The notes under the pieces were generated by a model, which made no database searches, was not told where the DNA came from, and saw nothing but the letters and a program-made list of their open reading frames with translations. Below, piece by piece: positions 39,834 through 42,579 of a DNA stretch of 64,000 bases. The stretch is from contig NZ_PZJQ01000005.1 of assembly GCF_003206065.1 (NCBI RefSeq), positions 341,977-405,976 on the forward strand, written 5' to 3'. The first letter of the stretch is position 1, and the number at the start of each line of letters is the position of its first letter. This DNA is from Salinicola halimionae. Lineage in GTDB: Bacteria > Pseudomonadota > Gammaproteobacteria > Pseudomonadales > Halomonadaceae. A program made the translations under genes and the position numbers.

Positions 39834-40541
39834 CTACAGCGATACGGTGTTGCTGCGGATCTGAATCAACTTGCCCTCATCGATCACCGGTCCGGATGGT
39901 TTGCCTTCCGGTGCCCCGGCGCTGGGTTCCATGCTCACGGCGAAGTCGGCGGTCTTCATCAGATTCAGCATCTTGGCGGGAAGCTGCATGGTGGCTTCGC
40001 CGTGGTTCGGCAGCATGCCCAACGAGACCGGCGTGCCATTCTCCATCATCCATAGTTCGCCGCCCTTGCCGGCGGGCATCGGATCCGGCGACACCGCTTG
40101 TACCATCATCTTGCCGTTCAGGGTGGCGTTGAGAATCCACGCTGTCTGTCCACTGGCCTGGTTGATCACGAACACGTACTCGCCCGGCATCATGCCCGAC
40201 TCCTTCGGTGTCAAAGTCAGCACGGCCAGCGCTAGCGCCGCGGCAGTCGCGAGACCGCTGAATGCGCGCCAGAAGCCGAGGCGCTGTATCAGGCCGGTGC
40301 TCAGCCCGAGGCGTGAGCTGATGCCGCTCCACAGGCGAGAGGGCGGTGGAACGGGCGCAAGCTGCTGATTGAGCAGCTGCAGGTGCTCGCGCCAGGCATC
40401 GACGCTCTGCTGTAGCTCGAAACTGACCGCAAGCAATGCCTCGAACTCGGCACGCTGATCGCGGTCAAGCGTGCCGAGGACATATTCCCCGGCTGCCATC
40501 TCGCGCTCATCCGGGTCGCTCAAGCGAAACGTGTCATGCAT
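39834..40541 (-). CDS. Anti-sigma factor, RskA-type
   Basis: 235 residues. A cytoplasmic N-terminal segment with 'MAAGEYVLGTLDRDQRAEFEALL' (anti-sigma contact region) precedes one membrane segment (about 93-110, 'ATAAALALAVLTL') and a periplasmic RskA domain ('GEYVFVINQASGQTAWILNATLNG', 'GGELWMMENGTPVSLGML'). There are no cysteines, so it is not a zinc (ZAS) redox sensor. Its start lies inside the 3' end of the sigma gene (22-base overlap), implying coupled translation. The signal it senses is unknown. Confidence 0.88.
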   Translation of the reverse strand: MHDTFRLSDPDEREMAAGEYVLGTLDRDQRAEFEALLAVSFELQQSVDAWREHLQLLNQQLAPVPPPSRLWSGISSRLGLSTGLIQRLGFWRAFSGLATAAALALAVLTLTPKESGMMPGEYVFVINQASGQTAWILNATLNGKMMVQAVSPDPMPAGKGGELWMMENGTPVSLGMLPNHGEATMQLPAKMLNLMKTADFAVSMEPSAGAPEGKPSGPVIDEGKLIQIRSNTVSL

Positions 40542-41074
40542 TCTTTCAACCTCTCGAGGCCTCTCCGGACCCAGCTCTTGACGGTTCCCAGCGGTTTGGT
40601 CATATGCGACGCTAGGTCGTGGTGAGTCAGCCCTTCGAAAAACGCGAGTTCAAGCGCTTGGCGCTGTTGCGACGTCAATTCTGTCAGGCACTGCTGCAGC
40701 GTTTCTGCCTGCTGATTGATATCGCTCTCGCTTTCGACATCGGATTCGCCCGGTAGCGAATCGATGATGGCATCACCGTCGGATTCCTGGGGGCGCTGAC
40801 GCCTGAGCCAGTCGATACCGATATTGCGCGTGAGCGTCGATAACCAGGTCATCGGCCGGGCGCGCGAGGCATCGTACTGACCGGCTACCTGCCAGACACG
40901 CAGGTATACCAGTTGCAGGCAATCCTGAGCTGCTGCTTCCTGTCGTACGATACGCAGCAACTGGGCGTATAGATGCGGACTGGTCGCACGGTATAGCTTC
41001 TCGAAAGCGGAACCGTCGCCACGGGCGCTGGCGTGGAGATTGTCGATCAGCACGTCATGAGGCGGGTAGGCCAT
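40520..41074 (-). CDS. ECF sigma-70 factor, SigK-like
   Basis: 184 residues. Region 2 ('AFEKLYRATSPHLYAQLLRIVRQEAAAQDCLQLVYLRVW') recognises the -10; 'PMTWLSTLTRNIGIDWLRR' completes it. Region 4 ('LTSQQRQALELAFFEGLTHHDLASHMTKPLGTVKSWVRRGLERLK') is the helix-turn-helix for the -35. AAGGA precedes the ATG. Partner of the RskA-like protein downstream. It is divergent from the aromatic leader/DAHP synthase unit. Target genes are unknown. Confidence 0.92.
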   Translation of the reverse strand: MAYPPHDVLIDNLHASARGDGSAFEKLYRATSPHLYAQLLRIVRQEAAAQDCLQLVYLRVWQVAGQYDASRARPMTWLSTLTRNIGIDWLRRQRPQESDGDAIIDSLPGESDVESESDINQQAETLQQCLTELTSQQRQALELAFFEGLTHHDLASHMTKPLGTVKSWVRRGLERLKECMTRFA

Positions 41075-41177: not shown

Positions 41178-41205
41178 TTGTCAAAACTCATCGGCAGGTT
41201 AGGAT
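41178..41205 (+). promoter_or_regulatory. Promoter of the aromatic leader-DAHP synthase unit
   Basis: TTGTCA (41178-41183), 16-base spacer, TAGGAT (41200-41205), 43 bases before the leader peptide ATG. On the minus strand TTGACA (41184-41179) and TAGGAT (41163-41158) face the sigma gene with a 15-base spacer. CCTATC (41160-41165) and GATAGG (41203-41208) make the whole region a dyad. Confidence 0.55.
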
Positions 41206-41247
41206 AGGGGTACGACATTTCGAATAGAACGTCTGCGAGAGAACGTC

Positions 41248-41373
41248 ATGACCGAACGCCACGACTCACGTTTCATCGACACGGCCCAAGCTTGCGGCAA
41301 TGCGGTGACGTTTGCGTTCTTTGGTTATGGCTATTGGTTTAGGACTGGCGTGCCCGCCGGTTGGTCACATTGA
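41248..41373 (+). CDS. Aromatic-rich leader peptide of the DAHP synthase gene
   Basis: 41 codons, ATG 41248 to TGA 41371-41373, with GAGAG 7 bases upstream. Residues 21-31 read TFAFFGYGYWF: seven of residues 22-31 are Phe, Tyr or Trp, encoded at 41311-41340, and a further Trp is at residue 39. Such a run has no plausible structural role in so short a peptide, but is what amino-acid attenuators use to stall ribosomes when charged tRNAs are scarce. DAHP synthase feeds all three aromatic amino acids, and codons for all three are present. Hairpins and a terminator-like stem follow before the enzyme gene. Not annotated by size-limited gene finders. Confidence 0.8.
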   Translation: MTERHDSRFIDTAQACGNAVTFAFFGYGYWFRTGVPAGWSH

Positions 41374-41456
41374 CCTGAACCCGCGAGGCACGCCCGGAAC
41401 CGGGCTGCCTCCTCGCATCAAGAACCCCCGGATGGCTGCCCACCCGGGGGTTCTTG
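41347..41456 (+). promoter_or_regulatory. Transcription attenuator of the DAHP synthase gene
   Basis: Terminator-like stem: 41419-41431 pairs perfectly with 41444-41456 (13 bp, CCCCCGG/CCGGGGG core), the 3' arm ending TTCTT. Before it, a hairpin at 41385-41411 (GAGGCA/TGCCTC and GCCCG/CGGGC). An alternative 8-bp helix, GGCGTGCC (41347-41354) with GGCACGCC (41387-41394), would break that hairpin and free CCGGG (41400-41404) to compete for CCCGG of the terminator arm. A further hairpin (41359-41381) spans the leader stop codon. The T-run is short and interrupted, the weakest point of the model. Confidence 0.65.
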
Positions 41457-41502
41457 CGTATCGGGTCTCGCTTCTTGAATTCAATCCTGGAATGAGATCG
41501 TT

Positions 41503-42579
41503 ATGGACGCTGCCACATCCGAGCTGAAACCGACCCCGTCGACACCGGCGTCATCGCCCGCCGTGAGGATACTGCCGTTACCGACGGCCGATGAGCTGCG
41601 CCAGCGCCTGCCGTTGAGCCCGGCACTGCAAACCCGGATCGGCGAGCAGCGTCGAGCCATACAGGCGATTCTGGACGGCAAGGACGACCGCCTGCTGGTG
41701 GTGGCCGGACCCTGTTCGGTGCATGACCCTGTCGCAGCCCTGGAATATGCCCAACGCTTGGCGGCGCTCAATGCGGTCGTCGAGGACCGATTGCTGCTGG
41801 TGATGCGGGTCTATGTCGAGAAGCCGCGGACTACCGTCGGCTGGAAGGGCATGGCCTACGATCCGCATCTCGATGGCAGCGACGATATGGCCGCGGGCCT
41901 GGCCATGGCGAGGCGGCTGATGCGGGATATCGCCGAGCTGGGCCTGCCGGTCGCGACGGAGCTGCTCCAGCCGATGGCGGGAGCCTATTTCGATGATCTG
42001 CTGAGCTGGGTGGCGATTGGTGCGCGCACCACGGAATCGCAGATTCATCGCGAGCTGGCCAGCGGGCTGGCGGCAGCCGTCGGCTTCAAGAATGGTACCC
42101 AGGGCAATGTCGATGTCGCCATTGCCGCGATGCAGTCTGCTGCCCACCCGCATCGCCATTTCGGTGTCACGACGGCCGGCGGCCCGGCGATGATCGAGAC
42201 ATCGGGGAATCCGGCCACACATCTGGTGCTTCGAGGGGGGCAAAACGGGCCCAATCACGATGCCGAAAGCGTGGCCGCCAGTCGCCGCGCCATGGAGCAG
42301 GCCGGGCTCAGGGCCAATGTCATGGTGGACTGCAGCCACGCCAACTCGTGCAAGGATCATCGGCGTCAGACGGAAGTGCTGTTCGATGTGCTGGAACAGC
42401 GGCTGAAGGGCGATCGGAGCCTGATCGGAGTGATGCTCGAAAGCCATCTGTTCGAAGGTAAGCAGGCGCTCAACCCTGCGACGCTGCGCTACGGCGTATC
42501 GATCACCGACGCCTGCCTGGGCTGGGAGGCCACTGGCGCGTTGTTGACGCGAGTTGCCGACCGTCTACGCGGCGGATGA
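41503..42579 (+). CDS. 3-deoxy-7-phosphoheptulonate (DAHP) synthase, class I
   Basis: 358 residues, the AroF/AroG/AroH size. Active-site blocks are intact: 'LLVVAGPCSVHDPVAA', 'VEKPRTTVGWKG', 'AIGARTTESQIHRELASGL', 'VGFKNGTQGN', 'MVDCSHANSCKDHRRQ' and 'GVSITDACLGWE'. It condenses phosphoenolpyruvate and erythrose 4-phosphate, the entry to the shikimate pathway, and is metal-dependent. Isozymes differ in feedback by Phe, Tyr or Trp; the blocks 'FGVTTAGG' and 'MEQAGLRANVMVDCSH' lean to the AroF/AroH side, but I cannot assign sensitivity. Expression is probably controlled by the upstream aromatic attenuator. Confidence 0.96.
   Translation: MDAATSELKPTPSTPASSPAVRILPLPTADELRQRLPLSPALQTRIGEQRRAIQAILDGKDDRLLVVAGPCSVHDPVAALEYAQRLAALNAVVEDRLLLVMRVYVEKPRTTVGWKGMAYDPHLDGSDDMAAGLAMARRLMRDIAELGLPVATELLQPMAGAYFDDLLSWVAIGARTTESQIHRELASGLAAAVGFKNGTQGNVDVAIAAMQSAAHPHRHFGVTTAGGPAMIETSGNPATHLVLRGGQNGPNHDAESVAASRRAMEQAGLRANVMVDCSHANSCKDHRRQTEVLFDVLEQRLKGDRSLIGVMLESHLFEGKQALNPATLRYGVSITDACLGWEATGALLTRVADRLRGG

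Follow-up and report, generated by a model that had tools for sequence, protein, structure and literature searches.

A leader rich in phenylalanine, tyrosine and tryptophan codons as a probable attenuator of DAHP synthase in Salinicola and its relatives

Introduction

What controls the DAHP synthase gene of Salinicola halimionae, ahead of which lie a short reading frame crowded with aromatic codons and a chain of competing hairpins? We examined this locus within a window of 64,000 nucleotides, the whole stretch of DNA analysed here, and followed the element through genomes of the family, the order and the class. Very probably (about 0.88, by our estimate), it is a ribosome-mediated transcription attenuator of DAHP synthase built from competing segments A-B-C-D-E. 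Conservation of the leader, drift elsewhere in the leader, covariation of four helices and folding consistent with a switch support this. In what follows, we describe the leader and its helices, consider which amino acids it may sense, and discuss its relation to the Rfam family P15 and to known leader-peptide systems.

The leader frame and its gene

The element occupies a 428-base region between a leftward frame (40520-41074), which we take to resemble a sigma factor, and the rightward DAHP synthase gene (Table 1). The preliminary description of this DNA had reported a 41-codon frame preceded by GAGAG and holding seven aromatic codons in ten, all of which we recovered; purine-rich tracts also lie close to the GAGAG position in most Salinicola leaders (leaders of 18 loci). 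The run, TFAFFGYGYWF at 41308-41340, marks the single place in the window, across all six frames, with at least six aromatic codons in ten. Twenty simulated first-order Markov windows held a mean of 0.05 such places and none with seven or more, and a chance run was dismissed on this ground. The region thus appears to contain one hallmark of an attenuator, a short translated frame with clustered codons for end products.

The gene downstream reads as a class-I DAHP synthase, presumably of type I-alpha. Its closest solved structures are those of a Tyr-sensitive DAHP synthase (6agm/6agl, E 1.3e-114), and its closest named relatives are Salinicola species, with S. halophyticus at 91%.

Table 1. Features of the DAHP synthase leader region, in window coordinates
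Feature	Position	Strand	Evidence
Putative promoter-like site, TTGTCA-16-TAGGAT	41178-41205	+	consensus scan, 1 against a shuffle mean of 0.2
Putative ribosome-binding site of the leader, GAGAG	41237-41241	+	sequence
Leader peptide frame, MTERHDSRFIDTAQACGNAVTFAFFGYGYWFRTGVPAGWSH, ATG, 41 aa	41248-41373	+	reading frame and relatives
Control codons F-A-F-F-G-Y-G-Y-W-F, 7 aromatic in 10	41311-41340	+	
Segment A, GGCGTGCC	41347-41354	+	A:B 95.0% paired, 5 of 8 pairs with changes on both sides, 70 sequences
Segment B, containing GGCACGCC (41387-41394); pairs with A or C	41385-41395	+	covariation
Segment C, GGGCTGCC (41402-41409) plus TC; pairs with B or D	41402-41411	+	B:C 87.3% paired
Segment D, GGCTGCCC, apical part of the terminator	41434-41441	+	covariation
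Terminator-like 13-bp stem, tail TTCTTGCG after a G run	41419-41456	+	91.1% paired, 11 of 15 pairs with changes on both sides
DAHP synthase, 358 aa, ATG at 41503	41503-42579	+	PF00793, 267.7 bits

Conservation of the leader among orthologues

Each of 151 genomes of the family gave a DAHP synthase match at E <= 1e-60, and 133 of them hold a complete or almost complete close orthologue (E no higher than 7.4e-121). The upstream DNA was examined for all 133 (L017, L018, L019-L148 and L259), and a Phe/Tyr/Trp leader precedes the gene in every one (133/133). An in-frame match to a Tyr-Trp core pattern occurs in 129 of these leaders; three others (L088, L096, L104) carry GFWYGYF, read by eye, and the leader of L259 reads GGQYWYWF. 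The pattern matched 141 of 144 regions, including 12 P15 loci from outside the family (see below). Phe, Tyr and Trp are all present in 141/141 pattern-matched leaders, Tyr and Trp by construction because the search pattern requires Tyr-Trp, with Phe lying outside the pattern; the mean is 5.9 aromatic residues in 14 positions.

A second search covered the other 18 family genomes and G310. In G198, a DYWYWF leader precedes a DAHP synthase (L286/L287, G198:C18:70260-71281; 67-68% identity) that appears as two overlapping pieces, through a frame break or a sequencing error. Six genomes of one genus have a divergent second DAHP synthase, with a GYWFS leader in five (L277, L279, L282, L283, L284) and none in L281. 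Upstream of the remaining paralogues, no Phe/Tyr/Trp leader was found; L271 and L285 have only a frame of the second type (WRF; see below). In the window's own genome, the other close class-I enzyme of this kind (L001) likewise lacks such a leader, its best stretch holding 4 aromatic codons in 10.

Within the genus of the window, the frame is 40-44 codons long in 17 of 18 loci; for the eighteenth, L035, an ATG was not found within the length range tested. Nine Salinicola leaders of equal length allow codon columns to be compared: 16 of 18 N-terminal columns vary, none by synonymous change only; 10 of 14 vary in the block containing the run, 3 of them synonymously only; and 3 of 10 vary in the tail, 1 synonymously only. 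The preliminary description had proposed aligning orthologous upstream regions and had held that orthologues without an aromatic run would speak against it. No such close orthologue was seen among the 133, and in the aligned regions the run is kept, the N-terminal codons drift and the helices covary.

Competing helices and covariation

Structure was assessed on 70 non-redundant sequences, family orthologues and outside P15 loci together, which remained of the 141 regions after a similarity filter; L088, L096 and L104, where the pattern failed, were left out. The helices were read by eye from the 70 aligned sequences before any counting. The window has a stop-codon hairpin region at 41359-41381 and a further hairpin at 41385-41411, and the 8-bp helix A:B (41347-41354 with 41387-41394) is Watson-Crick in all eight pairs. 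These hairpins, the 8-bp alternative helix, the 13-bp stem and the position of DAHP synthase had been described beforehand and were confirmed, and the terminator stem is kept in the 70 sequences. The earlier helix set was nevertheless incomplete: A:B, the B:C hairpin and the terminator stand, whereas a fourth helix, C:D (41402-41409 with 41434-41441), had been overlooked. This helix, the predicted antiterminator, is 90.0% paired in the 70 sequences, with changes on both sides in 6 of 8 pairs; the window's own copy has one U.U mismatch.

Because B, C and D each take part in two helices, a read-through set (A:B with C:D) and a stop set (B:C with the terminator) exclude each other. Across the 70 sequences, 92.4% of cells are paired in the read-through set, against 84.5 +/- 0.4 after shuffling and 34.5-49.4% when the set is slid, and 11 of 16 pairs have changes on both sides. 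The stop set is 89.7% paired, against 81.8 +/- 0.5 shuffled and 38.3-61.6% slid, with both-side changes in 15 of 24 pairs. The shuffle control leaves relatedness in; the slide control removes relatedness but favours a structure read from the same sequences. RNAalifold, unprompted, chooses A:B and the terminator, and the RNA of 41300-41470 folds 3.66 s.d. below 200 dinucleotide shuffles. A second hallmark of attenuators, mutually exclusive antiterminator and terminator helices, is thereby found with covariation on 70 sequences.

A short T-run had been conceded as the weak point of the attenuator reading, and the weakness is real: a terminator scan of the window requiring 5 T in 8 found none, and the window's tail holds 4 T in 8. 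Of the 141 regions, 82 have at least 5 T in 8 in the tail and 53 have fewer, with 6 unscored.

A proposed switch and ribosome-aware folding

When Phe, Tyr and Trp charged tRNAs are plentiful, the leading ribosome would reach the stop codon and cover A. B:C would then pair, D would stay available for the terminator stem with E, and transcription would end before the gene. A ribosome held up at any of the aromatic codons between the first Phe and the Trp, these two included, would instead leave A free to pair with B; C, so released, would pair with D, the terminator would be blocked and the gene transcribed. From the features above we infer that the leader is translated, that transcription does terminate and that each of the three aminoacyl-tRNAs elicits a response.

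Folding the RNA up to D with a masked ribosome, whose footprint was assumed to extend 13 bases past the start of the A-site, is broadly consistent with such a switch. For the window, a ribosome placed on a Tyr codon or on the Trp codon is predicted to give P(C:D)=1.0, and one placed on the stop codon P(B:C)=1.0 with P(C:D)=0.0. With the last Phe codon occupied, B:C already reaches a predicted 0.92, and this codon gives no switch in the window because it is too near A. During a stall, the early fold is divided between A:B (0.71-0.74) and B:C (0.58-0.76), and the window RNA is predicted to read through when no ribosome is present, in contrast to the classical trp case.

Among the 70 sequences, a Tyr stall gives A:B above 0.5 in 57 when C has just emerged and C:D above 0.5 in 65 later on, and a ribosome at the stop codon gives early B:C above 0.5 in 58. 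Taking as a switch a stall that leads to late C:D together with a stop or free RNA that leads to early B:C, 57 of 70 sequences are predicted to switch. A stricter early definition (A:B at the Trp stall plus B:C at the stop) holds for 43 of 70. Counting against the switch, late C:D is still above 0.5 with the ribosome at the stop in 46 of 70 sequences.

Which aromatic amino acids may be sensed

The codons suggest that all three aromatic amino acids are sensed. One constraint in the run concerns nucleotides instead of residues, to judge from the aligned leaders. Phe codons earlier in the run are both TTT and TTC, whereas the Phe codon that follows Trp (window 41335-41341 and the corresponding positions of the other leaders) is TTT in 141/141 pattern-matched leaders, fixing UGGUUU, although in 31 long window frames TTC outnumbers TTT about fourfold (402 vs 103). 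A reason was not found; a processing site, a pause signal or a pairing are possibilities.

This invariance lends weight to a narrower account, namely a true attenuator that responds chiefly to only one or two of these amino acids, with Trp and the last Phe kept for RNA reasons. In the same direction, the available part of PMC11802643 says that the Phe-Tyr-Phe leader AroR of Corynebacterium glutamicum answers to Phe and not to Tyr. For the window, however, the antiterminator is still predicted in the later fold when the ribosome stalls at Trp, and the occurrence of all three residues in every pattern-matched leader argues for three-way sensing, though Tyr and Trp are part of the search pattern. 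We regard the narrower account as quite possible, if on balance doubtful.

Relation to the Rfam family P15

RF00627 (Pseudomonas sRNA P15) matches 41316-41450 of the window over its full model at 34.8 bits (E 1e-5), below the curated gathering cut-off of 70 bits. The preliminary description had not pointed to this family. Across the order, P15 matches occur in 15 of 194 genomes (10 over the cut-off), and all 15 sites, the window included, are upstream of a DAHP synthase with the leader present. Genomes taken for Pseudomonadaceae contain P15 in 40 of 59 cases, 37 over the cut-off. Thirty of these 40 sites were examined, 7 earlier and 23 new; the 23 further loci all precede DAHP synthase and have a leader such as YFFYGYWFSQRRA. 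Altogether, at 38/38 P15 sites, window included, the leader core and the gene share a strand, with 171-435 bases between the core and the point where the DAHP synthase match starts (the sites examined being L004-L018 and L288-L310).

Sharing the gene ahead of which they stand, the leader and the helices, the window element and P15 are, as their sequences indicate, of common descent. Since 38/38 P15 sites precede DAHP synthase with a leader, P15 is most likely the terminated leader RNA of the attenuator, the same device operating in Pseudomonas, a statement that rests on genomes taken for Pseudomonadaceae. On this view, P15 appears to act in cis as the leader of DAHP synthase, and its Rfam entry could be re-annotated.

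The entry itself suggests otherwise: Rfam gives RF00627 the type 'Gene', an sRNA, and P15 is named among the sRNAs detected by Livny et al. (available part of PMC2375449), so that a short transcript might act in trans on other mRNAs, its leader frame being incidental. We consider this improbable, given the invariable position of P15 sites before DAHP synthase on the gene's strand with a leader, the covariation of the alternative helices and the use of both TTT and TTC for Phe within the run. Less probable again is a functional small protein followed by ordinary end-of-transcript structures; GYWFS residues are indeed conserved in many leaders, but the N-terminal codons drift, the peptide tails vary by group (GVPAG.., QRRA, HA), and segment A, within the coding tail, covaries with downstream RNA. 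The slightest chance falls to a riboswitch for a small molecule in front of the gene, an idea that the available part of PMC2527527 raises for P15 because of its synteny with a TPP riboswitch: an Rfam scan at E up to 5 gave 10 matches, none of them to a riboswitch family, and conservation sits in the coding run and the competing helices. A T-box or metabolite riboswitch was likewise rejected, no curated family model having matched in that scan. A reverse-strand His_leader match (27.1 bits, cut-off 49) was also set aside and ascribed to the strong inverted repeat.

Distribution of the probable attenuator

In a maximum-likelihood tree of 90 DAHP synthases, the leader, scored by a loose criterion, occurs in 43 of the 44 rows of one clade (support 100/99) and in 3 of the 46 rows outside it. 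The sole exception within the clade, L173, has just 322 bases upstream. Clade members come from Halomonadaceae, Pseudomonadaceae and Alcanivoracaceae, the last two labels being inferred with the tree among the grounds, and include a Marinobacter. Nine near-duplicate Salinicola rows and four that were too short (L065, L105, L116, L142) were left out of the tree. One of the three rows elsewhere, L206 (the gammaproteobacterium SB0665_bin_27), has a GGYWFF frame upstream of a more distant DAHP synthase. L216 (Marinobacter) has an aromatic-rich frame, YGWFGYGFYF, also upstream of a more distant DAHP synthase. The two frames may be versions that diverged or that arose independently.

A covariance model made from the aligned sequences matched 27 of 369 genomes of the class at E <= 0.001. 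The six loci at E <= 1.3e-11 each combine an aromatic leader with a DAHP synthase: L230 (the window), L231 and L232 come from model sequences, L229 is a near-copy of one, and L233 and L234 are new, from a family outside the order. Weaker matches (E 6.5e-6 and above) were discarded, the 24 loci examined lacking a DAHP synthase.

A second leader in relatives

Between the terminator and DAHP synthase, 111 of 144 loci contain a second aromatic leader frame, for example at 305-388 of L119 (- strand) and 1349-1432 of L037 (+ strand). Its Trp-Arg-Phe core is TGGCGATTT in 106 loci, with Trp-Arg added before it in 5, and UUUA, like that following the first leader's Trp, is found at this core too. The second leader was not found in any of the 18 loci of the window's genus (the Salinicola group).

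It is followed by two helices in H-type pseudoknot order, CGGUCGG/CCGACCG and GCCACC/GGUGGC. On the 57 of 111 loci that remained after a similarity filter, these are 92.0% paired, against 82.9 +/- 0.6 shuffled and 26.8-52.1% slid, and 11 of 13 pairs have changes on both sides. An Rfam scan of 6 second-leader loci returned no family there at E <= 0.1. By eye, CUCCG in this second element could pair with CGGAG ahead of the gene. A role of the second leader and pseudoknot in the translation of DAHP synthase is our guess. In a combined picture, the first leader would be an OR gate for all three aromatics at the entry of the shikimate pathway and would be what P15 really is; in the 111 loci it would be the upper stage of a tandem arrangement, with the second leader and its pseudoknot as a further stage that controls translation of the same gene and that Salinicola has lost. 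We hold this picture tentatively, at somewhat less than even odds.

Comparison with known systems

The nearest precedent is aroR-aroF of C. glutamicum, where, according to the available parts of PMC11802643 and PMC4046766, a Phe-Tyr-Phe leader precedes DAHP synthase and ribosome stalling raises transcription. The likeness lies in an aromatic-codon leader ahead of the same kind of gene; Trp is not mentioned there. The preliminary description knew of no attenuator combining the three at a DAHP synthase gene; for aromatic codons in a leader at such a gene, this Phe-Tyr-Phe case is a precedent. In the literature searched, which covers subscription papers thinly and is hence no proof, neither a Phe-Tyr-Trp leader at DAHP synthase nor a description of P15 as a DAHP synthase leader was found. 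The available main text of PMC2965389, on premature terminators, does not contain aroF, DAHP or P15. In a table of PMC2659441 (available part), aroF is entered with an 'attenuator sensing tyr-tRNA' and a reference to older work on E. coli.

P15 and the window element have in common the Gly-Tyr-Trp-Phe leader codons, the related DAHP synthase downstream, the B:C hairpin and the terminator; Salinicola differs in its longer peptide tail (GVPAGWSH) and weak U-tract, and Rfam files P15 as an sRNA gene whereas the window element reads as a leader. Attenuators in gamma-proteobacteria were reportedly surveyed by Panina 2001 and Vitreschak 2004, and an earlier description may be contained in either.

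If the attenuator reading is true, a family filed as a Pseudomonas sRNA and once guessed to be a riboswitch gains a mechanism, and attenuation would span at least four families of Gammaproteobacteria. Moreover, all three end products of the shikimate pathway could then be integrated by attenuation at its first committed step, offering a concrete target for engineering strains for aromatic compounds in Pseudomonas and halophiles.

In enterobacteria, the his, phe and trp operon leaders each respond mainly to a single amino acid and govern terminal branches. With them the window element shares the stalled-ribosome logic and competing helices, the logic of known leader-peptide attenuators, and its five-segment chain seems to resemble the his leader. 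The window element differs in carrying codons for three end products and in the control of the first common enzyme.
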